Source: Calocera cornea HHB12733 (Eukaryota; Basidiomycota; Dacrymycetes; Dacrymycetales; Dacrymycetaceae). Taken from it: a DNA stretch of 64,000 nucleotides. Positions 28,308 through 51,327 of the stretch are shown here, piece by piece. The notes beneath the pieces are model-generated. The model worked only from the letters and a program-made list of their open reading frames with translations. It was not told the DNA's origin and did not search any database. The translations under genes and the position numbers were made by a program. Every line of letters begins with the position of its first letter. Position 1 is the first letter of the stretch. The DNA is taken from assembly GCA_001632435.1 (NCBI GenBank), contig KV424005.1:62001-126000 (forward strand), read 5' to 3'.

Positions 28308-28326
28308 GACAAAACCTCCATACCGG
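28308..28326 (+). repeat. Left terminal inverted repeat of the 23-kb element
   Basis: GACAAAACCTC, four bases, CCGG. The reverse complement of 51308-51327 has the same two blocks with a five-base spacer. Confidence 0.55.
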
Positions 28327-28337
28327 AAGCTATTCCC

Positions 28338-28470
28338 TACTATACTGACCCGTACTGGCTGGTACCGTCCGGTACTGTCCGGTACTGACGGTATCGCTCA
28401 GTACCCGTCCGTAACCGTCCGTACGTGTCAGTACATGTCAGTACCCGTCCGTACCCGTCCGTACCCACCC
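28338..28470 (+). repeat. Left subterminal GTAC repeat array
   Basis: A cluster of about a dozen short copies of GGTACTGTCC and CCGTACCCGTCC type words, many palindromic around GTAC. The same words occur in inverted orientation inside the right end. Likely binding sites for the element's integrase or another element protein; this is inferred from position only. A few further copies extend to about 28620. Confidence 0.75.
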
Positions 28471-28743
28471 TGTATCCTTCTGCTTCCCTCTGCCTGAACG
28501 CGTGGTCGTCCCTGTACCTACCGGGACCGACCCGTACCGACATCTAACCCTGAAACCGGATGTGTCGGGATCTGATTACCCCATGTAAGGACCCCGTACT
28601 GTACGGTACTCACGGTATTGGTTGTTTTATTTCTCGGTCAGCTTCCCCGCAACGCGGATTTCCCGCGCGCCATTTCCTCCCATATTCCACACATTTGACT
28701 GCTACTGGGGTCTATCTTTCGATCCATCAAATCACTGTTTACC

Positions 28744-31700
28744 ATGACGCCGCTCTATATCGGCCTTTTTTTCCGCCGCATCCTTTCCCTCCTCCCGCGC
28801 AGTCCCGCCGTATCTTCCACTCCCGTTCTGGCGTTCCCCTCTCTCTCAAATCGTCCCTGTACTTCATCCCTTTCCACCCTTGCCAGTTCCCACCCATCCC
28901 GTATCGCTTTGCGGCAGGCGTCCACCCTCCCATACAGATTGCGCCCTATGTTCCATTCAAGTGCTCCCAGTACTGTGCGGCACTATGCCCATCCCTGCAG
29001 CCAATCTCCCACCCCCCCTTCCGACATCCCGTCCTCCTGTCTTTGCACCTGCTACGTCGTACCACCTGAACATCCAGGATTCGTCCTTATCAATGGTTCC
29101 TATCCGCCTCTGGACTCTTCCCTCCTTTTACTTCCCTGCTTGACGTGCACTCACCCCCTCTTACGTCACCTCCCTGCCTACCCTTTACCAATAGCTCCTC
29201 AAACGTCCCCAGGTTTCCTAGCCTCCGGAGGTCCGCCAGATCTTTTCTCCCATGCTACCCCTCAAGACCCCGCCCTGGCACAAAATCTTCTCAGCATCCT
29301 CGCTCCAACTGGTCCTGGTCGGCACAACACCCAGGACGCTGTTCGGCGCATTCTTGCCTCCCACCAAGAGCAGTCTAGTACGGAACCCCATGCAACATAT
29401 CCCGCTCATCTTTCCCTTTCACCCCCTCTTCCATTCCCAGTAACCCACTCCGATGCTCGGACTTATACCCTTGCCTCTCGTAATCGCAGTATGCAACGGC
29501 ACACCGCGCCTACCACCGAGGAAACTCACCTCCGACAACATCCAGTCCGGACCCGCCGAACCATTCCCCCGCGATCGGATGTTTCTTCAGAATTCCTTGC
29601 TTTGCTCCGTGTCGATCCTGTCTATAGCCAATCCAACCCATCCGTACGCTTTCTATTCGTCCCATCTCGCCCATCCAGGCTCTCTTTCTCATATGTTTGT
29701 CCAGCCCGCCGCTCCCCCTCACAAGCGCTACGTTACCGCTTATATGCCCTTCCTTGAAGTGTACTACAACCCCTCCTCTTTCCCCTACCTCGCTCATTTA
29801 TCTGCAGGAGTAACGCTGCTCACCTTCTTGCCGCTGTAACCTTGCCAGACCAAACCAAGCTCCCTCGCCTTATCGCCACGCTCATATCAGTCTTTCCTCA
29901 TCTCAACATTCCGCCATGTCTTTCGCCGTCGGGCTCTACCATACCGTCCTTCGAAACCTCCCTACCTTTGGTACCATTGATACCCGACTCATCCTATATG
30001 GTTCCCGCCGGCGACCTTGACCGCTTAACAGTCGGTGGACTGCTGAAGTCCCTGTCCAGATATGTCCGCGGCAAGCGCAAAGCCAACGCCTTGCCACTCG
30101 TCATTGAATTCGGTTCGCATCCCATCTCACCGCCCTACCCCCTTCTTTCATACTTATAAATACCTTCATGCAGGACCTACGCATCAGCCTCTCACCCTTC
30201 GCGACTCCTCCACCCCGTCCAGCGGGGTGTGGTCCTTTATGGAACACTTCAAAACCGATAGTAGAACTTCTACTTTCCCTGTCCCCAGGGTCGGTTATCC
30301 CGTCTTCCCATTCTCCCACGGCTGACCTCTTACAATAGAAACCAATTATCTTGGCTGAGCTTCGGCAGCTCACCGCTGCCGCTCTCCACGCACCCTCCCT
30401 ACCTCTTCTCCGGCCCTCCTCATCCCTCTCATCTCATCTCCCCAGTCTCCCAAATCCAGATTCACCCTCTTCTCCTCCATCATCCCGGTCTCATCCGTCT
30501 CTTCGCAATGGAAATCCCGGACCTCTCCCTCAGCGTCCCAGCTCATACCAAGCCGTCCCCGCTTCCTACCCAGGTGTTTACCCCTCCTTTCCCGGCACAT
30601 CGCAGAACCATCATCTGCCATCCACTTCCCAGGTTCCCCAACAACGTCTCTCTCCCCTCCACAACGATCCATTGGCGCATACTCAGCTTCCTGTTCCCCT
30701 CCCTCTCCCTCCTCCCAATCTGGCGTCTCCGCACGTCCCTCTCACGGTGTCCACCCCCCTACCTCTCTTACCATCTCCCCATTCCCATTCTCTTCCCCCC
30801 CGGGTCCCGGCTTCACCGCCGACTATATCCACCACTTTCCCCCCCTCCAGTATGCTCCAGCCTCCCCCTACAATCCTCCCACTTCCTGAACCTTCCTCCC
30901 GCGACTACAGACCCCTTTCGTACCCCCCTGCAGTTGCTTCTTCCTTGGAGCCTCGCCCCGGCGTTTCTAACCCACAGTCTGATCCCCGCCTCTCTTCTAC
31001 ATATCAACCTCCCTCCTTCCCCCCTCCAACGCAATCCTCTGTCAATCCTTCCATTACTTCCCCCCCTTCCCAAGAGTCCTGGACCACCCTTACCTCTTCG
31101 TATCGTACACCCATCCCTCCTTCAAGCGGTCCTCAACGATTGGCTCCCTCCACTTCTCCTGCGCCATCTTCCCATCGTGTCTCCCCCACGGATTCCGGCA
31201 TCTTTTCCTCTTGGAAAACATGTGTCTCCCTCGCCAATCCCGTACCCTCCGCTGCTGACTTGGACTATTATCCCCCGTGTGATAACCTCGAGGAAGCAGC
31301 TGCAGCTCTCCGGGACTATTTGCGCGACGCCGTCAAACCCGTCCTCGGGCTGCAACCGGATGTTCACCGTTCGATCCCCGCGTTGTTGTCAGAGCTTCAC
31401 TTCCCAATCATGGCGTGAGTTTGACTTCCTTCGTGAGACCTGACATTCAATTCTTCATCAGTGGACGTGGCATCGGTAGCGGAGCCAATCTCGAAGTATG
31501 CCAAGCTACCCTAGATCGCTTCGCCCCACACCTCATTTCTCTCTCCTTTGGGGATTACAACACCTTGCGCATCAAGTCTTTTGGTGCCAGTGCCCCTCTT
31601 GAGGCTCGCTATCTATCCGAAGAGGCTAAGGTCGATTTCGCCGCCCTCGGCCTGCTTGTCGTCGTCTTCCTTAAACTATTTCAGTTCGGACCAGCATCCT

Positions 31701-32850
31701 TCTCCCCACTGACTGTACTCCTCGCCATTGCTGGTCACGACTCCATCACTCTAAGGTCTCTCCGTTCTTTCGCTCCTGAAATGGCACGATTTGTGGAGCT
31801 ATTTGAGCTCATGGGCCCCAATGGTTGCCTCAAACCTTTCTCTCACAGTATGGTACGTTACAGACAATCTTGCACGCGCCACGCACAATAGTCACCGCAA
31901 CACTCACACCTCCTCCCAGGAACCTGCCCATCCCGAACATTTCATCGCCTCAGTCGTTTACGGCGTTGCCAACCTAGAGGTTCGATGCATTGTTTCCATC
32001 CCGTCATCGTGTATCTCACAGTCCGGACGGTTGTCTCTCTCGCAGGATGGCGACTTGGCCACTCCCCGCACACCGGCACTTCATCGTGCTTGGCTGTCCT
32101 CCATCTTACATAGAGTCTTGTTTCTATCCGATCGCAATGACACTCATACCTTCGACGCCTTTGCGGCCGGCCTCAATGCACCTTTCTCCCCTCTTTCCTT
32201 GAGAGATGCCGTTAGTATTCATCCATACCATTCCTATCCCTACTCATCCAGCCTTCTAGTTTCTTCGGCAATTCAACATCTCGCCTCTCTCATTTGTTCG
32301 CTCTATGTGGCCTGATCGACGCATTCACGTCACCGCCGACGTGAGTAGCCGCATTCGCTGGGATGACGTCCCGGTCGATCAGATCCCTCTCTACAAGCAA
32401 CTCGCTCTGCATGCCGCTTTCACACGTTTCCTTCATGGTACCGGCGTCCCTCCGCGTGCTGCCTTGCGACAGTCCGTCGGGGATTGGGTCCCGCCGGCTT
32501 CGTACTCAGCAGACGCTACGGAAGATCCTCTGTTCAGAGCCGTCATGTTCTATCGTGTTGCAACAGGCGTCCCATATCTTCTACCTTCGTCCTCCCGTCT
32601 TTTTGTGCGTGCTTCGTCTCTTTGCAATCTGTCTCTGCTCATCTCTCCACAGATCAAGTTAGATAAGAACCTCTCCCACTGCAAATTTCAAGCGTGCACC
32701 CAGCAAGTATCCATTCCTCTTGAGCGGGGTACCTCGTCATGGTACCATCAAACCAGTCCTGACTGGGAAGAGGATTACGAGGCTATGTTGTTTATTCAAA
32801 TGATTGGTGATGCTCGAATTGGAGACACGTTTTCAATGAACACACTCTAG
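28744..32850 (+). CDS. Long Pro-rich protein with HECT-like C-terminal lobe (multi-exon)
   Basis: A run of compatible coding segments on the forward strand. The N-terminal segment (from ATG 28744) is Pro/Ser-rich with QDPALAQNLLSILAPTG. Then HLLAAVTLPDQTKLPRLIAT, LDRLTVGGLLKSLSRYV, a long disordered Pro/Ser region (about 30370-31180), and folded segments AADLDYYPPCDNLEEAAAAL, LEVCQATLDRFAPHLISLSF, FAPEMARFVELFELMG, TFDAFAAGLNAPFSPLSL, and the last exon with FYRVATGVPYLLP, QACTQQVSIPL and DYEAMLFIQMIGDA. The order F-x-x-x-TG-x-P-x-x-P, then A/T-C-x(5)-P-L, then a helix with I-G is that of a HECT C-lobe, with the Cys of QACTQQ in the place of the catalytic Cys. That is an inference from motif order. 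Exon borders are not fully resolved and two genes are possible. Confidence 0.5.
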
Positions 32851-34301
32851 ATCTAGACTAGATACGCGTTTGTCACCAGGGAGCTCCTTTAGTGTAGTAT
32901 TCCGCGTCACTCAGGCGCTCATACTTCATTTGCCCCTCTGTCGGATCTCATTTATGGATGTCATTCTTTGAGGACCTCAATGTATCAACGTTTTGGAGGC
33001 CCCTTATGTCCCCATCTCACTCTTCCTGTAGCCTACCTCCAGGCCATCCCATGGTCTCAACGTACCACACTGTCATCGCTCTCATCCGGAGGTGCTGAAT
33101 GGATGCGTCCAGACGGTATCATACCCGCCAGGCACGGCCATCACTGCGTTCATTGGACACTCTATGGCAACATTCCCTCACACATCTCTCCTCTCTGCAC
33201 GAGTCCGAGGGGCCGGGATGGGAAGAAGGCGCCCACAATAATTCCTGTATGCCGTATGCTTCAAGGTGCAACGCTCCAGTAAATCCCTCCGGCTTTTGCC
33301 ATATCATCTCGCTTTGCTGGCTTTCTAATGACCCCCTACCCGTATGGTCATCAATGTCTCCATCTGGTCAAATACGGTTCGCTGGACCTTCGCCATCGGC
33401 GGTGATACGCAGCAGCACAGGTAGTTCAGTATAGCCCTCATTCTCTATCTTTCTCAGTCTTTCTCTCGCGGTCTCATATCATCATCTGTCCGAAGTCGGC
33501 GCATCCGCCTGGCTTGGTCTGAATGCGTCCGGCTCGCTTCAACAACATCAACATCACACTCGGCTAGCTTAGCATGGGAGCGCTCCGAACCATAGGATCT
33601 TCTCAATATACATACACCGGTCCCATCCAGCTTACTCCTTCCACCGTCCATGTCGTAAATGGTTGCGCATCTGTACGATAGTCGCTTATCGTCAACAGGC
33701 GTCTCTCCTTCATCTCTAGGCGCTTCGTGCCCAGTTCACTGAGTCTTATTTAGGTATTTATGTCTGTTCGGCTGGCGCTGTTCTCTCTTCGGTTGCTCGG
33801 GTCTCGTCTCGCACAATGTGGAGTTATACCGTCTTACCCGGCCGGTCCCGGACTGTCCCGGACTGACTGGCGTCTCTCCTTCATCTCTAGGCGCATCGTG
33901 CCCAGTTCACTGAGTCTTATTTAGGTATTTATGTCTGTTCGGCTGGCGTTGTTCTCTCTTCGGTTGCTCGGGTCTCGTCTCGCACAATGTGGAGTTATAC
34001 CCTCTTACCGGCCGGTCCCGGACTGTCCCGGACTGACTGGCATACACTCTGAAAGCGTCCCGCACTGTTCCGTACACGTCATCGTCTCCTCTGGCGCACG
34101 ATATTTCAATCCGATCACATTAGCCCCCCCCCCCGCCCGGCAGTAGGTACTCTCAGCTACCCAGAGGTCGTCGGCAACAATATCAGGTCTTCAACAGCAC
34201 ATCGAATCAGAGCAGGCATGAGCCTAGGTCACTCGCTTCCCACTCTTCCCCTTCCTCGTCCACGTTCAGTATCTCCTGAACATATTTAGATGTCAGCAAT
34301 C
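32851..34301. other. Stretch without a supported gene, contains a tandem duplication
   Basis: Between two convergent genes. Apart from the 171-bp duplication at 33698-34040 and a C-rich run near 34127, nothing is recognised. Confidence 0.4.
33698..34040 (+). repeat. 171-bp tandem duplication, two copies
   Basis: 33698-33868 and 33869-34040 are nearly identical, with a handful of substitutions and one single-base difference in a C run. Each unit ends in the CCCGGACTGTCCCGGACTGACT motif family, itself an internal short repeat. Confidence 0.9.
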
Positions 34302-35908
34302 TCAGATGGCATCTGGAACACTGACACACGATAGTTTGTTGCTGAGCTCCCCCTGGGAGTTGTTCAGCCATGTCTCCACCTTCTGCTCGGCCGGCGTCTC
34401 CACCTGTGGCGGCACGTAGACGCGACCGTCCGCGGATCCAGTTAATGAAGGTGTGTATCCGTCCGGTTCGCCCAATTCCATCCCGTCGTCTCCCCCAATC
34501 GAATCGGTAGTGAAAACACTCGTATCATCCAGATCGTCGACCCAGTTCTCCGTCTCGGCATGACTCTGCAAAGCTTCCAGGAGGTCGTTTGTAATAGGAT
34601 CGAAACCCGGACCACCTTCCATGTCCGTATCTCCGTTCAGAGCCGGCAACGCTAGGCCACCCCAAGCCGTCACCGTCCTTTTGGTCGGACGCTCCTGGCC
34701 TGTATCACCTCCTGGTCCCCTGGGGTTGGATGCCTCGCTCCGCTTCCTACGCTTGGTCGGGGTTTTAGGATCCGGTCCTTGGATGCCGGGATACATTTCT
34801 TCGAGCGGGTTAGGTCGATCACCGTCCGTCCCATCTTTCGACTTGTTTTCTTCTTCCGGATTCTCACCATCCTTCACTTGAATCGCTTTCACCTTGGCGG
34901 TCCAGAGTCGGTGAAACTTCCGGATCCCATCGTACCGGAAGCGTTGAGCAGACGTGAGTTGTCTCTCGTGGATACGGTATCGTAGCCCCGCTGTGATCGT
35001 CATCACCCAAGGGTGGGCGTGGTGCCGGAACGTGGGAAATGGCGACCCGTCTGGACTGCGATAAGTAGTTTGGGTGTCTTCATCCTCCAAGTCTCCCACC
35101 GGCAGATACGTCGTGAAGGCAGCATGAGACGAGTCAGCGTCCTCGTATTTGGGCTTTTTGCGCCTAACGATAGGGACGTCCATCCCGGGAAATGTGGCCA
35201 ATTCATAGGTGTACCATGAGGTATGGGTAGGATCCTCCACGTTCGCAGAAGTCCACATCTACACCATGGATGTTGAGCACAGACCAGACACATCCGCAAT
35301 GCTATTGACCTACTCCTAGGTACGTGGGATCCTGTGTATGCTCCAGGTACCCCGTCATTCTTTCCAGGCTGTTTGCTGTTGGTACGATAGCCCATGCGAA
35401 TCGGTCGAATAGCCCATGCAGAGTCGGGTCCACTGCTCAAATCAGCGTCCATCGCATTTAAGGTGTGCACTCAATCCACGTACGGGTCATCAGGTTCTTG
35501 CGGCTATGGACGTCGAAGATAACACCGTTCTTGCGGAACTTCAAAAGCTAGCAGTTCCATTATGAGCTCTTGATTACGATGTGGTGTCAAGATTCAAGTA
35601 CGTACGATGTTCTGGTTGACGCTTCGCCGTACGATGTGGGCCACCTGCACCACCGGGTGGTCTAGCTGCGTCATGACGCATGTCCTCTTGTCCACCCTCG
35701 CGAGCGCTGACTTTCTCAGCTGTGGTGTCTCTGAATTCACCTTGGATTCCGCGTAGGGTGTCGTGAACAACGGTGCCCCCGGTGCGTTGTCAGGTGGTGC
35801 GTGATCATCTTCCTGATCAGCCAGTTGAACAGCTGCCTCGAATGTAGTTGCATCTGGCTCCAGACCATCGTCCAGTGCAGCTAGAGATTCGTGATCGGTC
35901 GTACTCAT
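34302..35908 (-). CDS. HNH nuclease-domain protein carried by the large element
   Basis: Exons 35908..35606, 35547..35484, 35432..35314 and 35258..34302 join in frame to 480 residues. The HNH_2-like domain spans about residues 78-160: RTCVMTQLDHPVVQVAHIVR, then FRKNGVIFDVHSRKNLMTLD and LHGLFDRFAWAIVPTA. These give the pattern C-V-x-T ... A-H-I ... N-L-x-x-L ... H-x-x-F-D of fungal HNH nucleases, in which the His residues bind metal. C-terminal part: a conserved segment AHPWVMTITAGLRYRIHERQ and then a charged, disordered tail with nuclear-type basic patches (PTKRRKR). The N-terminal 75 residues are acidic. Two exon junctions fall inside the nuclease domain. A role in element excision or homing is possible but unproven. 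Confidence 0.75.
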
Positions 35909-36473
35909 CGCTAATGTGAGGGATGACGGGGTGGAGTGTGGAGAAGAACAGGATGCGAGAAGAACAGGATGCGAGAGCGGCGTCCCGTCAGGGGCTGCGA
36001 TCGCAGCACCATCGCGCCACCGTGGACACGTGATGATAAACACCGGATGTACCCAACCGTATCGGGCCGTACAGCTCCTCTTGGTTTGTCCATATCATCG
36101 AAGCAGCAGGGCAAGGGACTGATTCAGCGCCATTTTCTTGGTCATTCATGCCGTATCAGCTATCTGCTACATATCATTCGAGAACTCCATATGAATCAGC
36201 GTTATCATGTCTTTCCCATCCTTCCCATCACAGCTCTTCTTGGAATAGCATCGGCTTCATTGATCATCGATCCTTATCGTCCCAGCCCAAAGGTGAGACT
36301 GCGTCCCACTGTTGTCCCGTCTCAGCTCAATATTTCGTCCATCGCCGTCCCGGCCCAGCTCAGCTCAGATATCGTCAGAGTTTCAGAAACATTTTGCCAC
36401 CGCGAGCTTTGGTCCCTGCACCAATCCCCCTTCGTCCATATCAGCATCTGGTCTTCAGTGGAGATAAAATCAC
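35909..36473. other. Intergenic stretch within the element
   Basis: Promoter region of the HNH gene and 3' flank of the next gene; no gene supported. Confidence 0.4.
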
Positions 36474-38173
36474 TTACTTGACCCGCCGCGTGACCTCCTT
36501 TTGCATCTTTAGACACGCCTCCGGTTTGGCCAGCTCAAACCCTTCCAGATTATCCATCACCTCATGATACGTATCTTCGAGTTCGACCGGGTCGATAACG
36601 TGTCCAGGCTTCTCCAAACCGTCCCACCAGGATTTCAAGTATGCCCAGATCTATTATGATCTGTGTGAGCGAAGATGTCATCATTCCTATGTCCTGTGGG
36701 TACTCACTCCGCACGTTGCGACAGCAATGATGCCCAGTGGCATCGGATCGAAGATCTCATCATCCATACTGTTCATCGCGCTTTTCCAGGCACTGCCGAT
36801 TACAGCCACCACGACGCTGCTGAGAAACGCCGTCCCGAGGTCCGAATTGGACTGCATATAGGTATTGCCCTCGTAGATGAAATGATAGTCTTCCAGAAGG
36901 TGGCGCACTCGCCACGCAATCACGCCTGGGTCGCCCGTGAAGATTCCTTGGTAGGCTACGGGAACCTCCGTGGCGGCACTCTTGAGGACGGTATCTATGA
37001 GGTCTCCGCTGTGGTTGCGGATCTACCCGAATACATCAGTGTTCTGAATTAGCGCACTCTCCTTGTAACGCACCTCCAACAGCATCTCCAGCCGACGTTC
37101 TCTCAGCAAACGCGTCACAGCCAACATCATGGACTCTCCTCCGTTCGCCGTTACTCCGGCAACCGCACTGGATAGTGCGGTTTCTGCCCACTGTACAGCC
37201 AACTTCTCAGAGGGGAACATCTGCAGACAGGCCTGTTGAAGCTGCCAAACGGGGATGGCATCACCGATGAGACGCTGTTCGAGCTTGGCCTTTGTATTGG
37301 TCGGCGTAGGCTTCGCCGTCTGGCCCGGTTTCGTATGGACGGATGCGGCCCCCTTCTTCTGGGTGGAGGATGATGACGAAGCAGCGTTAGTAGTAGTTAT
37401 GGTCCTGCGGTGTTTCGTAACGTTCTTAGCGGAGGTCCCCTCCTCTTCGTCGTCATCTAGAAGGTCGATGACATTAACAGGCTCCGTCTTGATGCCGTGG
37501 GGCTTCTTGAAGAGAGTCCGGACTTCCGACGGATCGATGTGGCTATCGACGATACGTTCGAAAACCATGACAAAGCGTCCATCCAGCAGCTGAGCGACCC
37601 CCCACGGCGGCTTCGCACCCACTGTGACCTGTGTGGCATCGATGAGCGTCGTGGGACTTCCTTGTCGCGCTCCACTCCACGCACCACGGGCGATCCCTCT
37701 CCATAACCTTCATTCAGTCTGCGCTGCTTCCGAGCACTGCCCTCCTCCTCCACATCTTGACTCTCGCGCATTCTCTTCTGTACGGACGGTGTTATAAGCA
37801 TGTGCATATATGCTGCGTCTCCCTGCGTACCTCAGCTTGCTTCCCTAGATCTACTGCCCCGGCCTCCAATACCCCCGCCTCCACCGCAGTAAGTGAGTCT
37901 TGCACATTCTTGCTGATCGTCGTAAACAGATTGGACAGTCTCCCCTTATCGCGGGACGCGCCTAGTACACGACCATCAGTCAGTCTGCAGCAGCTCCCAG
38001 GCAAGTATGGTCTCACCAGTCTCCGTGATCAACCCCTGCACGTCTTGCCCAGTCCGCCCTCCCTCAGGCGTTTCAGGGAGCTTCGGAGTCGTATCCACTG
38101 CCTTGTCCGCAGTAGGACTCAGCGGGGTCTGCGTGTTCTGTGCGTTCGGATCGTTGCTGATAGCCATCTGCAC
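36474..38173 (-). CDS. DUF6532-like protein of the large element (copy A)
   Basis: Coding segments in order on the reverse strand: MQMAISNDPNAQNTQTPLSP, LSNLFTTISKNVQDSLTAVE, KRMRESQDVEEEGSARKQRR (basic), GVAQLLDGRFVMVFERIVDS, SEVRTLFKKPHGIKTEPVNV, an acidic and Ser-rich linker, IPVWQLQQACLQMFPSEKLA, VIAWRVRHLLEDYHFIYEGN and MPLGIIAVATC followed by IWAYLKSWWDGLEKPGHVID. The C-terminal third follows the pattern of DUF6532 (element-rich family in Agaricomycetes, function unknown): a short-helix start, a vxxLLxDxxFxY segment, PxxIaxvaT, then a Tyr-rich helix. Exact exon borders and the last exon are not resolved; a TAA at 36476 or a GTAAGT donor coincide there. Confidence 0.5.
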
Positions 38174-38687: not shown

Positions 38688-38693
38688 TATAAA
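38688..38693 (+). promoter_or_regulatory. TATA box
   Basis: TATAAA about 80 bp before ATG 38772, followed by a pyrimidine-rich leader. Spacing and leader fit a fungal promoter. Confidence 0.45.
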
Positions 38694-38771
38694 CTCCCCG
38701 CCCGGCGACAGGGTCTTTCCCTCTCTTACTCACATCCTCTTCTTCCCCCCCCCCTCCCGTCGCGTCCTGTT

Positions 38772-39113: not shown

Positions 39114-39357
39114 ATGGACGTTGTCAACAACGGTTGGCTGTCTTCCATGGGCATGACGCCACCATGGGCAGCGTCACACTCGTCGGCGTCGACGCGCGTC
39201 AGGGTGGCGCGTCGACCCCACCCGGACGCGTCTCCACCTGGACTCGTCCCTCTCGTCACGTCCGCCTGCCTCTATCGTTGGTCCCATTTCGAACTACCGA
39301 CTGCAAGCTCGCTCTCGTTCTTCGTCGTCCACGCCCCCCATCGCATTCACTTCTACG

Positions 39358-39684
39358 ATGGCCTACTACGGACCGATCGCCCCGTATGCCATCCCACAAG
39401 TCCTACCGCCTCCCTTCGCGTATACCACGGTCCCGGTTGTTCAGATGTGGCAATGGAACGCCGTCGTCCCCAACGGTGCCGGACTCTCTCCCCCTGCGTA
39501 CGCCTACCAGTACCTTCCCTCCCCGCCCATGACTGTCAATGCAACCTATCCCCCAACCTGGATCGGTTCAACGCCTCCCCTCGCTGGCAACGCCCAGACC
39601 AACGGCGGCTGCTGCACCTTCAGTACCGCGTTCGCCGAATGCGTTACGGTAATCCTCCAAGCCGTAGGGGGGGGCGGTTGTTGA
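39358..39684 (+). CDS. Small hypothetical Pro/Tyr-rich protein with Gly-Cys tail
   Basis: A 108-codon frame. It is Pro/Tyr-rich (MAYYGPIAPYAIPQVLPPPF) and ends with a Cys-containing helix and GGGGC. Composition is biased and coherent, which favours coding, but no family is recognised. It may belong to the same transcript as the preceding small frame. Confidence 0.35.
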   Translation: MAYYGPIAPYAIPQVLPPPFAYTTVPVVQMWQWNAVVPNGAGLSPPAYAYQYLPSPPMTVNATYPPTWIGSTPPLAGNAQTNGGCCTFSTAFAECVTVILQAVGGGGC

Positions 39685-41040
39685 GGAGGTTAGGATGCTG
39701 TCGTTTGCTGTGATACTATCGTGCGTCTCGCTTGTTTCTTTCCTTGTCCGCATGCGCTCATTCGCGAGCCGTAGGTGGTCTTACACTTTCCGTCTCTGGT
39801 ACAATGGTATTCATGGTGCGTCACCGAACCCTTCCCCGCCCGCGTATTACTGAGTTTTATATTAGGTTCATCGCTCGTGTAGTGACCTCGTTTTCCAACC
39901 ATTCTTCATTCGCTTGACCGACACATACCTGTATGTACTAGTACGCATGGTTCAGAATGCATGAATTGTTACACCGAAACTGGCCACTCGGCGCACTGTG
40001 CAATGGCTGCATCTCTACGCCTCCGCCAGGACGCGGCAGTGCGTCCGGTGACCGGCCGCACGACATTTACAGTGAGGCCCCTCCTCGCAGCGAGCAGTGT
40101 GCGCATGATCGGTTTGATCCCCAGGATCCCTGGGCTCTGGGGACTGTGCAGCTCCGTTCGGACTGATCTCACGATGTACGAGCTCGCTGGGATTCGTCCC
40201 ACCAACTTCGCGGCCTCACTGTACTCCCGCGGTGGGCGGTTTCTTATGGGACCGTCTTATGTGAGACGCAAAGGACTAAATGCGCACGCATCGGATAGCA
40301 CGGCAATACAAGCAGCGTCTTCGCCGGCGAAACTACTGTTAGACATCTTCCCCGCGGACCGTCCCAAGCCGTCATCGAATGGATCGTAACTGTGCCGTCC
40401 AGCTCATCGCTGTGCTTGCTGCACTGTCGTATTGTGAGACTGGCGCGTTGCCTCCACACTCAGGGCAGGGTCTCCTCATTATAATTAACATCTTGACGAA
40501 TAAGAACGGTATCTCGTCTGAGGACGGTCAAGCCCAGAGGGCCCAACGCGGTCGACCCCCGGACACCGCTGCCCCTGGTCCCACACTGGGGCGCGGTGCC
40601 AGATTGCCTCCGCCTGACCGAGACTGGGGGTTCCCAACGCGTAACTGTCAGTGCCTGTCAGTCCCCGGCAGTCCTCATCCCTACTTACATCCGCAAGCTC
40701 ATCTGCCTCTGCCACTCCGACAACATCGAGTCTCCTCACCTCCTCCGGCCCCTGAACCTAGTCATCACTCTGGCAACTAGCGTCTGACGTTGCGTAGCGT
40801 GCCGTCCAGCTCTCGGCGTGGCGTATCCGGCTCCAGTATCTGGACGTCGCGCGTCTCCCGCCACCAAGCCAGGTCGCTGGACAGGAAGTCGCATCATCGG
40901 ACGCGATCGACATCCACTGAGAACAGCAGCTGCAAGTTGGTCTTCCCCGCTTCATGGAGGGTAGTGCTGGAGAGACCTCGACGCCTGCTCGTCGCATTCA
41001 GTTTCGTGTGTTTTATCCTATCGTGTCCCCCGTACGTACG
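39685..41040. other. Stretch without a supported gene
   Basis: Short frames on both strands without motifs. The right end is the promoter side of the forward DUF6532 gene. Confidence 0.4.
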
Positions 41041-43066
41041 ATGTGCTACTGTCCCAAACACTTACTGATCGCCGTGGACTGTCAGGCTACCCCTGGTGGT
41101 GTCCTTCAGCTGGGAAACGCGCTATCCAACATCTCCTTTCCCACAGCTTCCATTCGCCTGGCGGACCTGCCTCAATACCCGGGGCCTTCGTCATCGCTAT
41201 TGATCCAGATGCCTACTGCTTCGACCTCCACAGTCCCACAAGCTCCCCACGGGCCCTCCCAGTCCCTTAACGTCCCAGCTGGAAACCAGACGTCCCCCCC
41301 CCACATGCAACCTCCACGTGGTACGTACCATGTTGTCATCAGTCACACGCATGTCTTCACGTTCGTACTGCAGTCTCCTCTGGCCCCGTCGGTTGGTTCA
41401 AAAGGCAGCGCGAGGCAGACTCAATACCCATCGCCCCGTCTCCTCCGCACCTTCCCCCGCCCTCGCCTTCAGTCTCTGAACCGGGCGACGACATGGAAGA
41501 AGTGGAGGAAGACGATGATGACTACAATCCGGATTCTGACTCTACGAGTTCTGCAGCTAGTGTGGTCTATACCGTGAGTTACACGGGACTCCTCCGTGCC
41601 TGACTCGCATATATTGACCTACCTCCTAGGGATCAGGCACGCGGAGCCGCCCGGCCAAGCTGAATACGACAAGCCAAGTGAAGCCGATCGACCAGAAGAA
41701 GAAACAGCCTCAGTCCAAGCAGGTTAAGGACAAGGTCAAGGTGGAGGTACGCGTCATATGCTCCGTGCAGACGCATACATCTGACTGCACTCTTCACCAT
41801 TAGAAAGCGTCCAAATCCAAGGTAGTCAAGAAGCAGGTACGGCCACATACCCGTCTCGGCCGGGTCTCTCTCACTTACTTTGACCGCCATAGCTGCAGAA
41901 GGGGTCCCGCTCTACGGGCAAAGGGAAAGGGCGCCAAGCCAAACCTGCGCCTCCGTCCAACCCCGTCCCAATCCAACCCTCCAGCATCCACGAGCCTCCG
42001 CCTCCCATCCAGCCGACTCCGGGAGGCTCATACAAGTTAGAGTACTTCACCCGAGAAGAACAAGAAACGATTCAAGAAGCCAAGGTCCTACTGCGTCTTC
42101 AACATTTCACGATCAATCTGTATCCGGACAAATCGCAAAAGAACGCGTTCTTCGAGACCGCAATCACTATCGCCAACAAGGCGGCTCACCAGCGGTGGGT
42201 GCGCCAAGTCACCGAGGGTAACCCTAGAGCCATCAATGGGAGCTTATTGGGTGTCGGACTGCGCCACTCGAAGTCCCTAGTAAGTGTCCAGGAGGGTCCG
42301 GAGTCGTCCCAACTCAACTCCATTTGCAGATCACGCACTACGGCGTGTGGGGCCGCACCCTGATCAAGTCCGTCGCGCAAGTGGTTGTAAAACAATGCTA
42401 TCCTGAACTGTGGGCGAACGGTGTCACGGCCAACAAGCGACGCGAACTGGTCTCGATCCTAATGCATAAGAATACGTGCCTGTACCGCAGTTACAGGGTG
42501 CAGGACCTCACACGCATGAAGCTGAAACGAGAGGGGCCTTTCGCGCATCCCGCGTTGAAGGAGATGATCGTGCAAGCGTTTTTCGGGCACAGAACGAAAG
42601 GGGACGGACACTGGTTCCCAGAGCTGTTCACGCCCGAGCGGCAGCCGGACGGGCTCATAGCTGCTGCTGGCGTCGCTGTAAGTCCACATGAGCTACTACT
42701 CTTTCTTGTTGACTAAAACATGTCCTCCTAGCTGCGCTTCGCCTTGAGCCAGTACAGCACCGGGACGATGGTGGACTCCACATTCTCTATGTCGAGTTGG
42801 GAACCGCACTACAAAACTATTCTGACTAGCATCCAGTACATGAAAGGGACCGAGAGTCTGCGCGCGGAGTATGATGCTCTCATGGAGGATATCCTCCGGG
42901 TGGCTACGTACGTCACGGGAATCCCTTCTGCTTTGTGGACGGTGGCTGACTCGCATACTTTAGGGATGTCATCGCAGCCCGTAGGGCCGAGAAAGCTGAA
43001 GCGATGGAAGGGAATTCTGACGACAACGAGATGGGATTTCTCTCTCAGGACTCGGATGATGAATGA
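41041..43066 (+). CDS. DUF6532 protein of the large element (copy B)
   Basis: Eight exons (41041-41320, 41374-41573, 41630-41746, 41804-41836, 41893-42279, 42330-42677, 42732-42907, 42964-43066) join in frame to 547 residues with GT-AG introns throughout. The N-terminal half is disordered with an acidic patch (DDMEEVEEDDDDYNPDSDS) and then a Lys/Gln-rich basic linker, giving a likely nuclear protein. The DUF6532 domain covers about residues 230-520: LLRLQHFTINLYPDKSQKNA, GVWGRTLIKSVAQVVVKQCY, LVSILMHKNTCLYRS, FAHPALKEMIVQAFFGHRTK, HWFPELFTPERQPDGLIAAA, LRFALSQYSTGTMVDSTFS. It ends in an acidic tail. Function unknown. The intact splice structure over eight exons indicates a functional gene. 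Confidence 0.78.
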
Positions 43067-44081
43067 TTCAAGCCTACGGCCACTACCACTCGAGATGATT
43101 CGCGTGCGATCGCCACCACCCGACGGTACGGGTATCATCTTCGACTACTTCGATCTGTGCGTGCAAAACCTCGAATTTCTGTGTCCTCATATCAAACCCA
43201 ATGGGACGGCTACGGACGCGGCTGGATGCCGACACCCGACCGCCTACCCGCAATGAAACTACTATCGTGTATCCCTACGGCCTCTATCTCTACAACCAAG
43301 AACCTCTGTTTTCTCACTCTCATCATATCAACCTTACTGGGACGGCGACGGACGTGGCTGGACGTCGATCGCCGTGCGCTTACCCGAACTACACCCTACT
43401 CTGATGTATCGGAACCAGAACTATCTCTGCCTGCAAGAACCTCGATTTCCTTTCCGTTTCGTCATATCAACCGTCAATGCGACAGGAACGGCCCTGGGTG
43501 GACGCCCTTCACCCTCCGCCTGCCCAAACTGCAACGTACGATCGTGTAGCCTGTCTTCTCATTCTCCAAGAAGTCTCCTCACGATGAGACCCGGTTTCAA
43601 TCCCTCTTCAACCGTGCCTTCTCCTCAAATCCATGACCCGGTTCTTCCGGGATACTGTTTCCAGTCCGATGCCCCCAAGACTACACTCTTCTATGACCTA
43701 TGCTACTCCTAATCCGTCCCAATCCGTATGTCACAATTCCCCATATATCCAGCGCCCAGTGCGCCGGATATCACAACTGTATCTCCCGCAATGTACCCGA
43801 GGAAGCGTATGCGATAGTCTCTCTCGCCGCCTGACGTCCTGTATCATACTGTCATCCTAGCTTAGTGCATCGACTAGGGACGTCATAGGTCGTTATCAAT
43901 CAAATAGCGTCGGCTGGAGCTAGGACGGTCCGATCGGCTGACACACACATGTATTCAGGGCATAGTGAAACAGACTTGTGGAAGGAGTACAGACGGAACG
44001 GACGGTATCATTGAACGGGGAACACAGGTGGTATGCGCAGGTCTCGCTACATGTAAGCAGATCACATCGTGGGCTAGTGTC
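43067..44081. other. Stretch with tandem repeats between convergent genes
   Basis: Contains the triple repeat at about 43166-43560. Otherwise no gene supported. Confidence 0.4.
43166..43560 (+). repeat. Three imperfect tandem repeats of about 137 bp
   Basis: CATATCAA words at 43188, 43324 and 43463 mark three copies, spaced 136 and 139 bp. Each has an AACCTC(G)ATTT-like lead, CATATCAAC, GGGACGG...GGACG and CCCG/CCAAACTAC blocks. They lie just past the stop codon of the DUF6532 gene, so they are probably 3' UTR or intergenic. Confidence 0.75.
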
Positions 44082-46572
44082 CTATGCCCTATTATCTTCG
44101 CCAGGTGTCACGGCTGTTAAAGGTCCACCTCGACGCTTCTTGATGTTACGACCAAGACTGGAGAGAAACGGGAGAACGGCCTTGGCGCGGGCGTGCAGGT
44201 CTTTCTCGTTGATGGTGGCGGCAGTCCGTTCACCAATGGTAGTGCCGGCCCCCCTCGGTTGGGGAATGGGACGGTGGGGATCAACGAAGTATCTGAGGAT
44301 CTCGGGCAAGTCTGGATCGAACTGGCAACCAATATCCTCTGTCTCGATGACGATATCATCAAACAGCTTGACTAGAGTGCGTTTGTTCTTGAAGGTGTTG
44401 TACGGGTATCCCATCCAATCCAGAACTTGATTGGCGATGATAGGGACCCCATTGACCATCATACTGCCTTCCGCGTGTGCGTCTTCATCAAGGACATCGA
44501 GGTGACGTAGGACCGCTTTCACCGCATGCCATCGGCGAAATTTGAAAATCGCAGGCGAGCGCTCGGTCGTAGCCCGCAGCGCTAGATCTAAACAATCATC
44601 CCAGCCGGGCATATCCCGAAGGCGACGATGAAGTTCATCCTCCAAAGCTGCAGTCATGCCTCGTCCTCCCACGGCGACGGGGTTTCCATTGGATGGGGCG
44701 GTAATGGGTGCGGTAGTACTTATAATGTTGTGCAAGGTCATAGCATTGGATGTCGTGCCGGACGGTACGGGATGGGTGTGGTATTGGGATGTACCATTAC
44801 GGGGATCGCCTGCATCTGCGCTCAAGCGCTGAATTGACCCATTATTGCGCGATGGATGATCGGGAGGACGCTGTGTGGCCGCGTCCGTACCCATGGCGCT
44901 GGGGGGCCGCGTTGGCGGTAGAGATGTGTGGTCGGCTTGGATCGTCCCCCAATCCGGAAAGGGAGGAATGGCGTCGGGGCTGGCTGGAGCAGCGCCAGAC
45001 TGATTACGACTGCCTTCTGCGACAGATCTCACTGGGGCGGTGAGTAGAGGTGTATCTTCATCCAACGGTATGGACTGTCGAGGATCAGGGGCGGTAGACG
45101 ATGTTCCACTGCTCTCGGGCTCCACGGGAAGAGGATCTCCAAAGGGCAACGTACTTTCCTAGCGCAACTGGCATCAGATGACCGTACGAAGGGAATGGAA
45201 GAAGGTCAAAGTATAATAGACAAGATAAAGACCGACCTTGAGTAGCTCAAAACACAACACAAATAATGGTTCATCAAGGTGCGCCATGCGGAGGATATTA
45301 GAGACGAATGCACGCGTCAGCGGCGCGGTGACCAGGACTGAGCTGATGCCTCTGGCAGTGACCAACTGACGACGGACCGCATCGCGAGCGCTTGAGAGCC
45401 ACCACCCACCGTGAACACGACCATCTACGGCGTGGATCGCTGCAGGGACTCGCGACAACCAAAGCTCATGATACGCTTCGTATGTCGGCCATCCACGCTG
45501 TGGGGTTATATTGGACAAAACGATGTCCATCAAAGCGTCGACTGTAGTGCGCATGACACCATCGTCCAGACGATACAGCGTTTCGTCCACCGCGTAATGG
45601 CGAAGCAGATATCTTTCCTCCACGGTAGAACCCGGGCCAGAAAAGAGAACCAAAATGCTGCATCGTCCAGGAGAGTGGGCTGAGCGACACGGAGCCGCAA
45701 CCTGGATGATGAGATCGGGCCCCACGCCGCACGCGTTCGTATGAAATGTGGCCGATTGCTGGGTCGCAAACGAATGAATAGTGCTGGGATGAACATCCCA
45801 GCCCTCAGTTCCGATCTGAGGGGGTCCCCAACCACCGTCGGACAGAGGAGTGGTGGTGTGGGGAGGGGAGTCTCCAGCATCACCCTCCAGGTCGTCCAAC
45901 TGTTGTTCGGAGGTGCTTGGAATGAATCCGGACATTGGCGAGGATTGCTGCTAGATGTACAGAGATTAATGATAAACCAGAAGGGAAAGTTCAGCGACGC
46001 ACGGGCATTTGCGGGTCTATCGGTTCTGGCGGAACCGAAGAGGAGGGTTGTCTGCCCTCGACTTGGATGAATTGAACCGGCTGTATCACGAGAGGTGAAG
46101 GAATGGATGACCAGGAGGAAGTCGGCCGGACAGAGGGGTACGATTGGTTACTGCCGATATCGACGTTGTCCGGGCCCGTCTCGGCGTGGGCCGTAGTGGG
46201 CGCCAGCATTGGCGGCGTGCTTATGGTGGGTGCCATTGGGCCAGGATCTTCCATCATGAGTCCGTCTGCTGTTCCATAAGGTCCGGATGAGAGGGGATTG
46301 TCAACCTGCTACGTGTCAGAGCTATTCTGCTCGACTCAACCCAGAGCAGGACTGAAACGAACTGGAGGAGGCGCGGAAAGGTCCACACTTGTACCACTCG
46401 TACCACTCGTCCCACTCGTCCCACTCGTCCCACTCGTCCCACTCGTCCCACTCGTCCCACTCGTCCCACTCGTCCCACTCGTCCCACTCGTCGCGTTGCG
46501 TTTACGTTTATTGGGCCGTCGCGCTACGACGACAGTAGGGGTCAAAGTACGGTTGCGGAGCTGGTCGACCAT
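44082..46572 (-). CDS. Hypothetical element protein with Thr-Ser-Gly repeat N-terminus
   Basis: Exon 1 from ATG 46572 encodes a basic start (RRPNKRKRN) and 11 TSG repeats. A possible intron (donor GTTCGT, acceptor CACGTAGCAG) leads to exon 2 with MMEDPGPMAPTISTPP; another (GTGCGT...CATCTAG) to exon 3 starting QQSSPMSGFIPSTSEQQ; a third (GTCGGT...GCGCTAG) to the last exon ESTLPFGDPLP, stop at 44082. Folded segments: LLRHYAVDETLYRLDDGVMR, GWPTYEAYHELWLSRVPAAI, RRLRDMPGWDDCLDLALRAT, HAVKAVLRHLDVLDED, VLDWMGYPYNTFKNKRTLVK. It ends in a basic tail (GRNIKKRRGG). No family recognised. Present only in the element's context; the first two introns have weak donors. Confidence 0.5.
46384..46493 (+). repeat. 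9-bp minisatellite coding for TSG repeats
   Basis: About 12 head-to-tail units of CCCACTCGT (first units ACCACTCGT). On the reverse strand each unit encodes Thr-Ser-Gly in the exon 1 frame. Confidence 0.93.
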
Positions 46573-46673
46573 GTTGAGTGTCTGATGAAGCGGGCCCTCT
46601 CTGCTTCAAAAGGAGGAGGAGGAGGCTGAGGCGGTCAAGGTCCTAAGGTGAGTTCGCTGGCAAGAGTGGCGGG

Positions 46674-48535
46674 TTGGAGCGGGACCCTTGGGGACTGACA
46701 CTGACCGTCAGTACCGGACGATACCCCATTAGTAACGAACGGGCGAGGGAGGTCATGTCATTGCCGGAAGGCGTGCATGAACAAACATTACTCCAATGGT
46801 ATGCAGCCTTGCATCAAATTGGGGATCACTTCGAGCGTGGTCTTCGGGGAAATCCAGGCGACCAGACCTATTGGCGGAGAGTGCAAGCGGAAGGGCTGCG
46901 GTTGATCGATGTTCTGGGCGAGGTGCGGATGCTCCTTTTTACACCGGCCCCAGTGCATTCAACCTTGAATAGATATGGAACTTACTCCCGGAGGAGGAAT
47001 GTTTTGGAGCCGAAACTCAACTGAGAGATATCCTGGATTATGCGGAGTCTGTACCGGAGCAGCAAGATCCAACTATAACTGGACAAGGGCAGCCTGCGGC
47101 CTGGATTGGCTCAGACGCCGCTTGTGGAGGGAGACCGAAATTCGTGATCAACAAGGATTTCCTCGTCACGGCCATGCGAGTGGTACCCCGGAAAACCGAC
47201 TTGGCCAAGGTGTTGGGCGTTTCGGCACGTACACTACAAAGACGCATTATTGAGTACGGTTTGCAACGTCCAGGCCGTCCGGTATATGTACAGCGGCGAA
47301 ACGAGCAGGGGGAGATTGAAGTGGAACACAATCCGAACCGCTCGCGTTGCACGTGGGACGACGAAACATTGGATCTGTCAATCAAATGGGCTTTGGAACG
47401 ATTTCCCCGGCTGGGTCGCAAGATGTTGCAAGGGTATTTCCATGCGCAAGGGCTCTACGTGCCGGAGTGGAGGTTACAAGATGCGTTGCGGCGCCTAGTG
47501 CCGCATCGCCAATTTGGAGAACGATTACCCCTGGAGCGGCGACGGTACCAAGTCGCCGGACCCAACGCTCTTTGGCATGTGGATGCTCAGCTCGGTATGC
47601 ACATCTCTAGTCTGAGTCGGGTATAGTCTAACTTGGAATAATGTGGAACCCAGGGAACGTACGCTACGGCCTGGTATTCCACGGCTTGATAGACGGGGAT
47701 TCCCGCCTATGCGTGGTGCTTCAAGTGGCGACAAACAACACGAAGGAAATGGCCTTCAGAGCCTTCCGGGACGCCTGCCAGCGCTACGGAACACCCTCCC
47801 GGGTTCGAGGGGATCATGGCGTCGAGAATCTAGACATAGCGACTTGGATGAATTATAGAAGGGGGGTCAATCGAGGCTCGTTTCTGTGGGGAAGGTCAGG
47901 AAATGTGTGATCGTTGCTGCCTAAGACAGGACTGAAAATATTTGCTCAGATCGGTTCATAACGTGCGCATCGAACGCATGTGGGTCGATGTCACGAAAGA
48001 TTTTGGTGGCAAGTGGAAAAATATTTTCATCCACTTGGAGACGTACTACGGACTAGATATTCAACTCAACGCTCACATCTGGCTGCTTCATCATCTGTTT
48101 CTGGATGACGTTAAGGCCGATGCGGACATGTGGCGTGAGACGTGGAATGCACACCGGATGCGCACGCCGGGGGAACCGATGCAATCGCCCAACCAAATGT
48201 GGTTTCTCGGGATGATCCTCAAGGGGTATAGAGGAATCCAAGACGAGGGTCTGTGGAGAAGAGCTCCACATGAAGGTGGTGGGGATATGTACGGGGTGGA
48301 CTGGCGAGAGCTTCAGGATGATGCGTTGATGCAGCACCATGCAGGCTCGCACCCTACCGGTTTCACGGAGTTCCGTGTTGACGACCCCACTTGTCCTCTG
48401 AGTCCAGAGGAGATACTCCAGCTGGACAGAGATATCCAGCCGTACATGGAGGGGTGGACGGCGATAGACTATTACAGGAGGTGGGCCATGGGATTGAGGG
48501 CGTTGTTGCAGCTACAATACTTGCGAGACGCGTGA
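46674..48535 (+). CDS. Integrase core (rve-type DDE) protein, probable transposase of the large element
   Basis: Exons to 46922, 46973-47594, 47654-47894 and 47950-48535 join in frame; the first exon and true start (left of 46755) are not resolved. The N-terminal helical part (EQTLLQWYAALHQIGDHFER) is followed by GGRPKFVINKDFLV and a helix-turn-helix (LAKVLGVSARTLQRRI), then a catalytic core: LWHVDAQL (first Asp), GLVFHGLIDGDSRLCVVLQV, ATNNT, VRGDHGVENLDIATWM (second Asp), RGVNRGSFLWGR and SVHNVRIERMWVDV (Glu). These form the D,D-35-like E arrangement of retroviral-type integrases, in the branch with the HGxIDGxSR and HNxRIERxW signatures. Family chemistry: metal-dependent strand transfer of DNA ends. 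It is the only recognisable recombinase in the element. Confidence 0.8.
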
Positions 48536-49173
48536 CGAGGATGGTAATGGTTGTCAGTTAGAAGCAGGATCGCTGAACGGCGCGCAGGTCATTATCAGTG
48601 TGTATTGACGGGGAGTAATTATAATTGTGTATAAGCGGCCAAAGCCCTCTGACCGAGTGGGTAAATCGCAAGGCTAATATTGCCGCCCCCGGACATATTA
48701 GGTAGTGTAAGTACGAAAATCAGGAGTCTGTGTATGGTATAGAGGTGAAGAGATCGCCGTGTACCAGCACAACGGATAAGGAGTTAGAATGGACGGTTGG
48801 AACGGGGACATAAAGGAAAACGAGCAGTAGACAGACAGCAGCGACGCAAAAAGAAAACTCGGTAAATAGGGCGCGTGTATTTAAGGTCTACCGATGGAAG
48901 GAACATCTTGGTCCATGAAATCTTCAATAATGGAATATACTACTGCTCTAATATCTGGGAGTGAAGGTCGGATAGCGCAGCGGGACAGAGAGAGACTTAG
49001 AGCAAGGTGTCGAGGACGGACGGAGACTGGATAGGACGGACGGAGACTGGATGGGACGGACGGGTTTTGGATGAAAAGGGGATGGGAAGGGAAGGATGTA
49101 TGAGGAAGATACAGGGTGGGACGACTGAGGACTACGGTATAAGGAACATGATGGAATTGCTACCCCAAGTAAA
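48536..49173. other. Intergenic stretch within the element
   Basis: Between convergent genes. Holds about two and a half units of a 20-bp repeat (GGACGGACGGAGACTGGAT) at 49014-49065. No gene supported. Confidence 0.45.
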
Positions 49174-50688
49174 CTAGTGACCCGTCGATAAATGGGAATG
49201 CCAATATTTCTGGACACCCCGCGCGGCCTGATCAGTCCAGTTATCGAGGAACCAGGCCATAAGCGTAGTGTAGAAGTCTTCGTAATCAAATAAGGCGATC
49301 ACTCGTTCGGGGCTGGCGTTGAGAGAGAGATCAAGAGGCAAAGTGCCAGAAGGACGTGGGTCCGCGGCAGGAGTAATCGTACCAGGCGAAGGGACGTCGT
49401 CCACCACATCGCGAGGATTGGCGAGGGCGTAATGAATCTAGCGAAGGCAAATGGAATAAGGCAAGAGGTACGGAACATAGATAATGGTACGAACGCGTAC
49501 GGCCAAGTAACAGAGAGATGAGACGAAGTGATGGGAAGCAGCCGTGCCCAGGAGAGTGATAGTCGACGAGGTGGAGGTGAGCTTGAATCCGTTGGTATGG
49601 AAAAGCTGGACATAGAGCTGACAAATACATAGGGTTATAAGTAGAGTGGGACGGGTTCGGACGAAGTGAAAGTGCATACTTGGAGGAGCGCGGGCGCACA
49701 AAAACGGCCGTCCGCGGGAAGGTGCGGACAGCGCTTTCCGCCAGGAAACAAAAATGTCGGCAGGCCAAACGGGTCATGTTCGTGGGTAAGATGATCGACA
49801 TCGTACAGGAGAGCCGGGACTGGAGGGATGAACTGAAGGGAAGGGATGTTGTACTGCCCGATGACATTGGGCAGGTAGTGTCGAATCAGGAGGTCATCGC
49901 GATCGAGGACCCATGCGCGTCCGATATCAAGCTGGGTGGAGGAGTAAGAGGGAGGTAGGAAGGAAGGGGGGAGTGAAAGGTGTTGACCTCTTTAGATAGA
50001 GGACGTATCAGGTCCTCACTCATGAGGGAGTCTCTAATACGGACAGCAGCCTCGAGCAAGAGCTGAACGTGGTCCCGAGTGACCTCCAATAACCTACATG
50101 CGCTTAATTAAGGAGCTGCAAAGGCAAAAAGAGTTGGAAGGGGTACTCCAGAGGCGGGATAGGATGAGGGACCGCGGCGCCCAGCTCAAGCATAATGTCC
50201 CGAGTAATATGAGCAGCACTGGTGACAAGATGAGCATGGGATCACGTCGTACGGACGGGAGTATAGACCTTTCCGGTGTGATGCGCTTGGATGCCACATG
50301 CGCTTCGAGGGCGGCCAAACGTAAAAGCGGTTGGAACGGGAAAGAAAGCGCCCCGAACTGGGTGTAAACAGCACCCGCCAAGATGACAGGTGAGCTTTAA
50401 TGCCGGTCAGAAGTGGACAGGGACAGTAGGGATAGAGAGCGAACATCGAATTGGGGTTGGCGGCAAGACGGGGAGGGAGGGTACAGTGAAGTCGATGGAA
50501 AATCCACATCTAGAGGTAGGCCTCAGAGTGAGAGAACGAAAGGGCGATAGAGGTAAGCGGAAACGTACCGCTGTCTGATGGGCAACAGAGCAATAATAGG
50601 CTTGCTGGCAGCGCGCACAGCGGCGTAGGCCAATTGGGGAGGCGCAGAGGCCGCAGCGAGGGGAGGAGTTCGGGACAGAGTAAGACAT
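49174..50688 (-). CDS. MYND-type zinc-finger protein of the large element
   Basis: ATG 50688 begins MSYSVPNSSPRCGLCASP followed by RRCARCQQAYYCSVAHQT: C-x2-C ... C-x2-C ... YC-S-x3-H, a MYND finger, with the last His/Cys pair expected after the first intron. Further segments on the same strand are FQPLLRLAALEAHV, RDPMLILSPVLLILLGTLCL, LLLEAAVRIRDSLMSEDLIR, FPGGKRCPHLPADGRF and a C-terminal exon VVDDVPSPGTITPAADPRPS to ALFDYEDFYTTLMAWFLDNW, stop 49174. Exon joins are plausible but not fully set. MYND fingers bind proline-rich peptides and are numerous in Agaricomycetes. A rich set of Pro-rich proteins is coded by the same element, which could be partners; that is speculation. Confidence 0.6.
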
Positions 50689-51069
50689 GTTGGGGAAGGG
50701 GGACGGGGGGAAGAGGAGGAGGAGGAGAAGGAGAAGGGGAGCTTTAGTGGAGCAGAGGGAAGCTGGGGGGACGGGGGCCTGTTGAGGGAGGGAGGGAGAC
50801 TCAAACGGATAGGGAGTGCGGAAATTACTGCGGGGACCAGCGGGCGGGGGGTGGGGAGGAAACGGAGAGGCTTGTGCGTCCAATGAGAATGGTCCGATAG
50901 AAGGATAGGGTCGCTGGGAACGGAGGGGCAGACTGTGGCCAAGGAGACCCCAAAAGTAGGCATTAAGAATGAAGAGGACGGAAAAAAATTGAAAGCGTAG
51001 AGAGTGGGCGTAAAGTATGGGAGGCGTGGCGAGGGGCGGGGTGAGTTGGGGAGGGACACCTGGGGGTCG
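50689..51069. other. Promoter side of the MYND gene
   Basis: G/A-rich on the forward strand, i.e. pyrimidine-rich in the direction of MYND transcription. No gene supported. Confidence 0.4.
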
Positions 51070-51298
51070 AGACGGACGGTATGCGTCAGTATGGGACGGT
51101 ACACGACGGTACGGTGAAGTATACATCCGGGGCGTGGGAAACGCGGAAGCATCATAGCAGTATAGGTAGGTACCGGATAGGTACCAACGTGTACTGACAG
51201 TACCGGACAGTACCGGACAGTACCGGACGGTACCGGACGGTATTGGTCAGTACGGGACGGTACACGTCAATATGGATGAGTACAGGTAGGTATACCTC
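51070..51298 (-). repeat. Right subterminal GTAC repeat array
   Basis: About 15 short copies of GGACAGTACC and GGACGGTACC words, in inverted orientation to the left array. It shares the core GGTACTGTCCGGTACTGTC with the left side when reverse complemented. Confidence 0.75.
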
Positions 51299-51307
51299 CG
51301 CCTGTGA

Positions 51308-51327
51308 CCGGAAGCAGAGGTTTTGTC
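51308..51327 (-). repeat. Right terminal inverted repeat of the 23-kb element
   Basis: CCGG, five bases, GAGGTTTTGTC: the reverse complement of the left terminus blocks. Confidence 0.55.

Follow-up and report, generated by a model that had tools for sequence, protein, structure and literature searches.

A stretch of 64,000 nucleotides from the basidiomycete Calocera cornea HHB12733 (GenBank assembly GCA_001632435.1, contig KV424005.1, positions 62,001 to 126,000 of the forward strand), here called the window and numbered from its first letter, very probably contains, in complete form, a giant DNA transposon with multiple genes that belongs to the IS3EU/GingerRoot group. The element spans 28291-51344 (23,054 bp), is bounded on both sides by a 6-bp CCCCAG target-site duplication, and is one complete copy of a mobile element. 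Seven complete copies of 20.9-30.0 kb, this one included, are present in the genome, and TA..TA termini with matching 6-bp duplications were found in nine of nine copies (seven on single contigs and two bridging contig ends). The placement is made because termini, duplication length, DDE integrase domain and lack of an HHCC motif all fit. We rate the family as a new giant form of this known kind, placed by its traits and not by transposase phylogeny.

The left and right duplications (28285..28290 and 51345..51350) have the same letters. Immediately inside them lie imperfect 26-bp terminal inverted repeats (TIRs) at 28291..28316 (plus strand; beginning TAACACAGCG and finishing GACAAAACC) and 51319..51344 (minus strand; outer end ...CTGCGATA), identical at 18 of 26 positions. 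An earlier note on this DNA, made from the sequence alone, had recognized short inverted ends, GACAAAACCTC/GAGGTTTTGTC, at 28308-28318 and 51317-51327. Such ends exist and are the inner portion of the longer repeats, but they were set 17 bp too far inward on each side, as seen from the CCCCAG duplication and from comparison with the copy C179, in which the conserved end extends 17 bp beyond the first-reported ends on either side. The extended left-end pattern occurs at nine places in the genome at up to three mismatches, a control pattern at none. The conserved bases outside the first-reported ends were considered as a site-specific target; this was dropped, the same bases being found at nine element ends. 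For the duplication, a length of 4 bp was weighed as well, and 6 bp was adopted after comparison of short non-autonomous copies.

When the genome was searched with the left end, a second place came to light on C179, where oppositely oriented matches lie about 23.7 kb from each other. The complete copies outside the window are C179 (23,784 bp, duplication CCCGAG), C32 (21,502 bp, CACAAC), C27 (20,862 bp, CCAGTC), C153 (21,219 bp, GTGACG), C104 (21,015 bp, GGCATG) and C94 (29,963 bp, GTAAGG). Two further copies, paired out of four left-only and two right-only ends, appear to be split across contig ends: C196/C26, with the shared duplication CTCCTG, and C278/C29, with CCTTAT. A 6-bp match is expected by chance once in 4096 for one given end pair and about 8 times in 4096 for each split copy. 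For C104 and C94 the left duplication was predicted from the right end before the left end was inspected, and both predictions matched. Movement of the block in its entirety is strongly supported by complete copies elsewhere, which have ends of this kind, matching duplications and core genes. The earlier note had proposed looking for full-length copies in other genomes, and six more were found within this one.

Members of a sister subfamily appear to have moved recently, because three left ends with different flanks, C27:2969, C239 and C278, agree at 99.7-99.9% identity across 602-1,525 bp. Another 1,446 bp is identical between C27 and C239. All three ends run into contig ends, C27:2969 and C239:5472 being the left ends that remain after pairing, and such breaks are expected of recent copies that interrupt an assembly.

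Beyond the 26-bp TIRs come inverted arrays of short repeats, in agreement with the inverted GTAC arrays of the earlier note. The left array (28344..28463, plus strand) consists of GTAC-containing repeats at spacings of 10, 10, 10, 20, 10 and 10, with its best autocorrelation at lag 10 (z 11.6); the right array (51194..51282, minus strand) is 10-bp-phased and inverted relative to the left (z 8.2). Counts of GTAC in the outermost 350 bp at the two ends of the window copy are 15 and 12, against 1.6 per 350 bp inside. When autocorrelation was computed over bases 27-250 from each end at lags 5-15, with z taken against letter shuffles, lag 10 was the peak in 18 of 18 ends of the nine copies (z 2.9-11.6, the weakest being the right end of C94 at 2.9). 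The left end of C104 keeps the 10-bp period with no GTAC at all. Two of the 18 outer flanks have lag-10 autocorrelations of 0.41-0.42, no lower than those of the weakest ends (0.35 and 0.40). Ten base pairs is about one turn of the DNA helix, and for this reason we read the arrays as putative protein-binding sites, presumably for the transposase, on one face of the DNA.

The transposase is encoded by gene G (46755..48535, plus strand; exon 3 ends at 47885 according to the gene finder, and sequence and homologues suggest 47894). The rve-type integrase that had been noticed was confirmed by a strong match of its core to Pfam rva_4 (1.5e-54), with a weak helix-turn-helix match upstream. The catalytic D, D and E are present in all 18 transposase rows from the genome; the HHCC pattern occurs in none of these rows, some of which have it in part, and in one of 118 homologues. 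When PDB sequences were searched with a profile of the transposase, nothing came up at 0.01, and fold searches alone tied the protein to integrases. The transposases of the seven complete copies form one clade (SH-aLRT 100, by a quick method), and a clade that also takes in those of C28 and C292 sits on a long branch. These two loci each have a more distant transposase with a piece resembling gene A close by.

Gene models, built with a purpose-written gene finder and by comparison with C179, give eight genes (A-H) that together occupy about 12.1 of the 23.1 kb. The earlier count of about seven accessory genes agrees with seven plus the integrase, as judged from these models and from purifying selection relative to C179. 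Between the two copies all eight genes are 46-83% identical in amino acid sequence, with dS of 1.0-1.8 and dN/dS of 0.07-0.31, ratios that are approximate since dS above 1 is near saturation. The genes look maintained, and the similarity of their dS values suggests that they diverged together. A core set of A, E, F, G and H was sought in the genome with one exon each. By these exon searches A, F, G and H are matched in all seven complete copies and E in six (C94 is the exception), so that the set is whole in six of seven; some of the matches are at 36-60% amino acid identity. Order and orientation can change while the gene set is kept: a segment at about 36.4-39.8 kb lies in opposite orientations in the window copy and in C179, and in C27 and C153 the F-G block runs the other way round with respect to A and E.

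Among the core genes other than A and G, gene E (40954..43066, plus strand; 540 amino acids) encodes a DUF6532 protein (PF20149, 2.4e-16) and is also matched in C196. Gene F (44082..45935, minus strand; 591 amino acids; dN/dS 0.23), matched also in C29 and C196, has no match in Pfam or PDB at E up to 1. Gene H (49174..50688, minus strand; 373 amino acids), matched also in C29 and C26, encodes a MYND zinc-finger protein (PF01753, 4.9e-08), so the MYND gene listed as cargo is real and belongs to the core. DUF6532 was likewise correctly named and is present twice, the other protein being that of gene C (36474..37709, minus strand; PF20149, 7.9e-08; dN/dS 0.31), in the segment that is inverted in C179. 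Gene B (34302..35908, minus strand; 480 amino acids; dN/dS 0.17) carries the HNH domain that had been reported (HNH_2, PF13391, 7.3e-11). It is a variable gene, with a close relative in two of the seven complete copies, the window copy and C179, and weaker matches outside elements at C36 and C14, in a search that could miss a very divergent HNH gene. We infer that HNH, and perhaps other genes, are variable cargo. Gene D (39358..39684, plus strand) encodes 108 residues, rich in proline and tyrosine with a cysteine-rich C-terminus, and is 68% identical to its C179 counterpart (dN/dS 0.17); we take it to resemble a membrane-associated cysteine-rich protein.

Gene A (28948..32850, plus strand) is a multi-exon gene for about 1,000 amino acids (dN/dS 0.17), matched also in C196 and C239. 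Two gene models cover it and are probably parts of one gene, because a Calocera protein, P0001, resembles both by eye. P0001, from Calocera viscosa, a dacrymycete, is the only relative found in the protein database; a search of that database with the gene-A alignment gave none among 7,996 scored candidates, under a length filter that excludes proteins like P0001. The HECT-like character once ascribed to the cargo, which was seen by eye only, could not be confirmed in gene A. Its model has no Pfam family, its alignment yields a weak DUF543 match in two of six rows and one unrelated weak PDB match (E 1.2), none of the 14 matches listed in a genome search with PF00632 lies within these elements, and the structure model of P0001 (mean pLDDT 37.6) is too poor for the question. 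Gene A has an invariant cysteine in the motif AC[TS]xQVx[IL]PL. A distant relative beside a transposase (L027 3024-3596, minus strand) has the motif FWQMATGSARLPPRG, and its frame has no Pfam match. To our eye the invariant-cysteine motif and TGSARLPPRG of the distant relative may be HECT-like, and FWQMATGSARLPPRG may resemble a HECT C-lobe.

The earlier note held that the element resembled no class it could name. Its traits match IS3EU/GingerRoot, for which TA..TA termini, usually 6-bp duplications and absence of the HHCC motif are described (PMC10045372). All nine copies have such termini and duplications, and the transposase is of the rve-type DDE kind without HHCC; the giant size, the conserved five-gene core and the helix-phased decamer arrays find no mention in the portion of that account consulted (PMC10045372). 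The nearest published fungal case is Styx of Zymoseptoria, a smaller relative in the IS3EU superfamily with 7,927 bp, four open reading frames (transposase, GATA, CCHC and DUF3577) and 36-bp TIRs, for which its authors inferred a non-replicative mechanism and found no similar elements outside Zymoseptoria (PMC10853768). It shares with the present family a DDE/integrase-type transposase, TIRs, 6-bp duplications, several extra genes and recent bursts; the present family is 2.6-3.8 times longer at 20.9-30.0 kb, has eight genes in the window copy and shorter TIRs, and the Styx partner domains are absent from the gene models scanned (PMC10853768). Rust-fungus IS3EU elements have the termini TAYGG..CCRTA, and a beginning of TATGG is found here in the non-autonomous copies and at some right ends; the TET-bearing elements of Pucciniales and Tuber indicum likewise have 6-bp duplications and extra genes, but these include TET/JBP and alpha-kinase genes, neither of which was found in the models and exons scanned here (PMC12730594). 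A Ganoderma genome study reports a larger number of IS3EU copies in G. leucocontextum and, separately, lists DUF6532 with the additional domains of that species and of G. boninense (PMC8955403). The Starships of Pezizomycotina are also giant, cargo-carrying fungal elements, with a classification centred on a tyrosine recombinase, whereas the mobility enzyme here is a DDE integrase (PMC12134995). The absence of a tyrosine recombinase captain, already remarked upon, holds for the 26 queries scanned (10+10 exon frames and six gene models, a subset of the open frames). No published description of this giant family was found among the titles and abstract openings listed, in a search that did not extend to preprints, most subscription journals, Repbase and Dfam.

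Several points weigh against the assignment to IS3EU/GingerRoot or against a mobile family in the form proposed. The assignment is made from traits and published descriptions, not from a comparison with Repbase IS3EU transposases. The TIRs measure 26 bp and match imperfectly, at 16-21 positions, against more than 30 bp in the TET-bearing rust elements (PMC12730594). The genes of the copies outside the window are known by exon matches, several of which contain in-frame stops, from introns or decay, and those copies may not all be intact. Neither an empty site nor an excision product was seen, and at 12 other transposase-relative loci of the genome no TA..TA pair with a 6-bp duplication was found within about 1.5 kb (0 of 12). 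The window copy has no near-identical sibling and may itself be old, since its closest found relative, C179, is at a dS of about 1.4. The first of these points also bears on the idea that the giants are a distinct, unnamed superfamily of integrase-type elements, with TA..TA ends and 6-bp duplications in common with IS3EU only through rve ancestry. The size and gene set are unlike the published descriptions consulted, and a long branch leads to the clade that unites the giants with C28 and C292. In its termini, in the length of its duplications and in having no HHCC pattern the family nevertheless agrees with IS3EU, and we regard a separate superfamily as quite improbable.

An explanation outside this group, a Polinton/Maverick-like or viral element, would share the size, the rve-type integrase and the 6-bp duplication (PMC6431247, PMC10045372; the duplication length from the latter), but polymerase, ATPase, protease and capsid families were found in none of the 26 queries, consistent with the earlier remark that no protein-primed polymerase was seen, and this origin seems extremely improbable. 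Hardly more credible is a chance nest of unrelated elements and genes; the inversions described above would suit it, yet nine copies have a common kind of ends, the seven complete ones have common core genes, and dS is similar across the eight genes. It is less far-fetched, though still unlikely, that the transposase and the ends alone matter and that chance trapping of host genes accounts for A, E, F and H. The HNH gene is variable, so gene gain and loss do happen. Set against this are the presence of A, F, G and H in seven of seven complete copies and of E in six, some at 36-60% amino acid identity, the selection acting on the window genes, and the A-like pieces that also adjoin the distant transposases at C28 and C292.

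For the giant IS3EU/GingerRoot-like transposon, the following mechanism may be envisaged. The transposase would bind the helix-phased decamer arrays inside both ends through its N-terminal helix-turn-helix and then pair the ends. Cutting at the TA..TA termini and joining to target DNA with a 6-bp stagger would follow, and repair of the stagger would leave the 6-bp duplication. Genes A, E, F and H, as its conserved partners, would serve the element; most likely they would help long DNA to synapse, act in host control or shield the element from silencing. We tentatively suggest, while stopping short of favouring it, a class of giant basidiomycete DNA transposons whose helix-phased end arrays are acted on jointly by a transposase of the integrase type and an obligate set of element proteins (A, perhaps with a ligase domain of HECT type, DUF6532, F and MYND).

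Most eukaryotic cut-and-paste transposons have one or two genes. The efficacy of DNA transposition falls above about 6 kb of cargo, according to the consulted part of a review (PMC6431247). Here the family measures 20.9-30.0 kb and keeps a five-gene core across deep divergence while at least one cargo gene varies. It would parallel the Starships of ascomycetes while using another enzyme. The question it raises is which of the accessory proteins enable a transposase of the integrase type to mobilise long DNA or to evade silencing. If the obligate-partner class is real, a DDE transposase would be able to move 20-30 kb units with exchangeable cargo, much as Starships do with tyrosine recombinases.

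The family also has a non-autonomous derivative of about 560 bp. Its three complete copies (L016 5068-5638, L015 4580-5159 and L013 6967-7536), one of which is matched by the other two at 95% and 97% identity, all have identical 18-bp ends, TATGG..CCATA, and 6-bp duplications (GTGTTC, GAAGAC and CACTGG); two partial copies are 92% and 70% identical. The non-autonomous copy on C29 adjoins the right end of a giant element. Matches to the transposase query at C52, C21, C48, C2, C14 and C34 (L028, L030-L034) have open frames of 481-531 amino acids and no recognisable ends nearby, and possibly represent larger elements or domesticated genes.

The insertion site of the window element looks intergenic. 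To its left lies a GNAT acetyltransferase gene (25890-26672, plus strand) and to its right an AAT-type acyltransferase gene (53147-53887, plus strand). Two large open frames in opposite orientation on either side of the element (22010-23632, minus strand, and 56928-58448, plus strand) are 55% identical and have no Pfam match at 0.01. Outside the element, the frame of a separate transposase, of MULE (Mutator) type and weakly matching SWIM, lies at 16255-17619 (minus strand).

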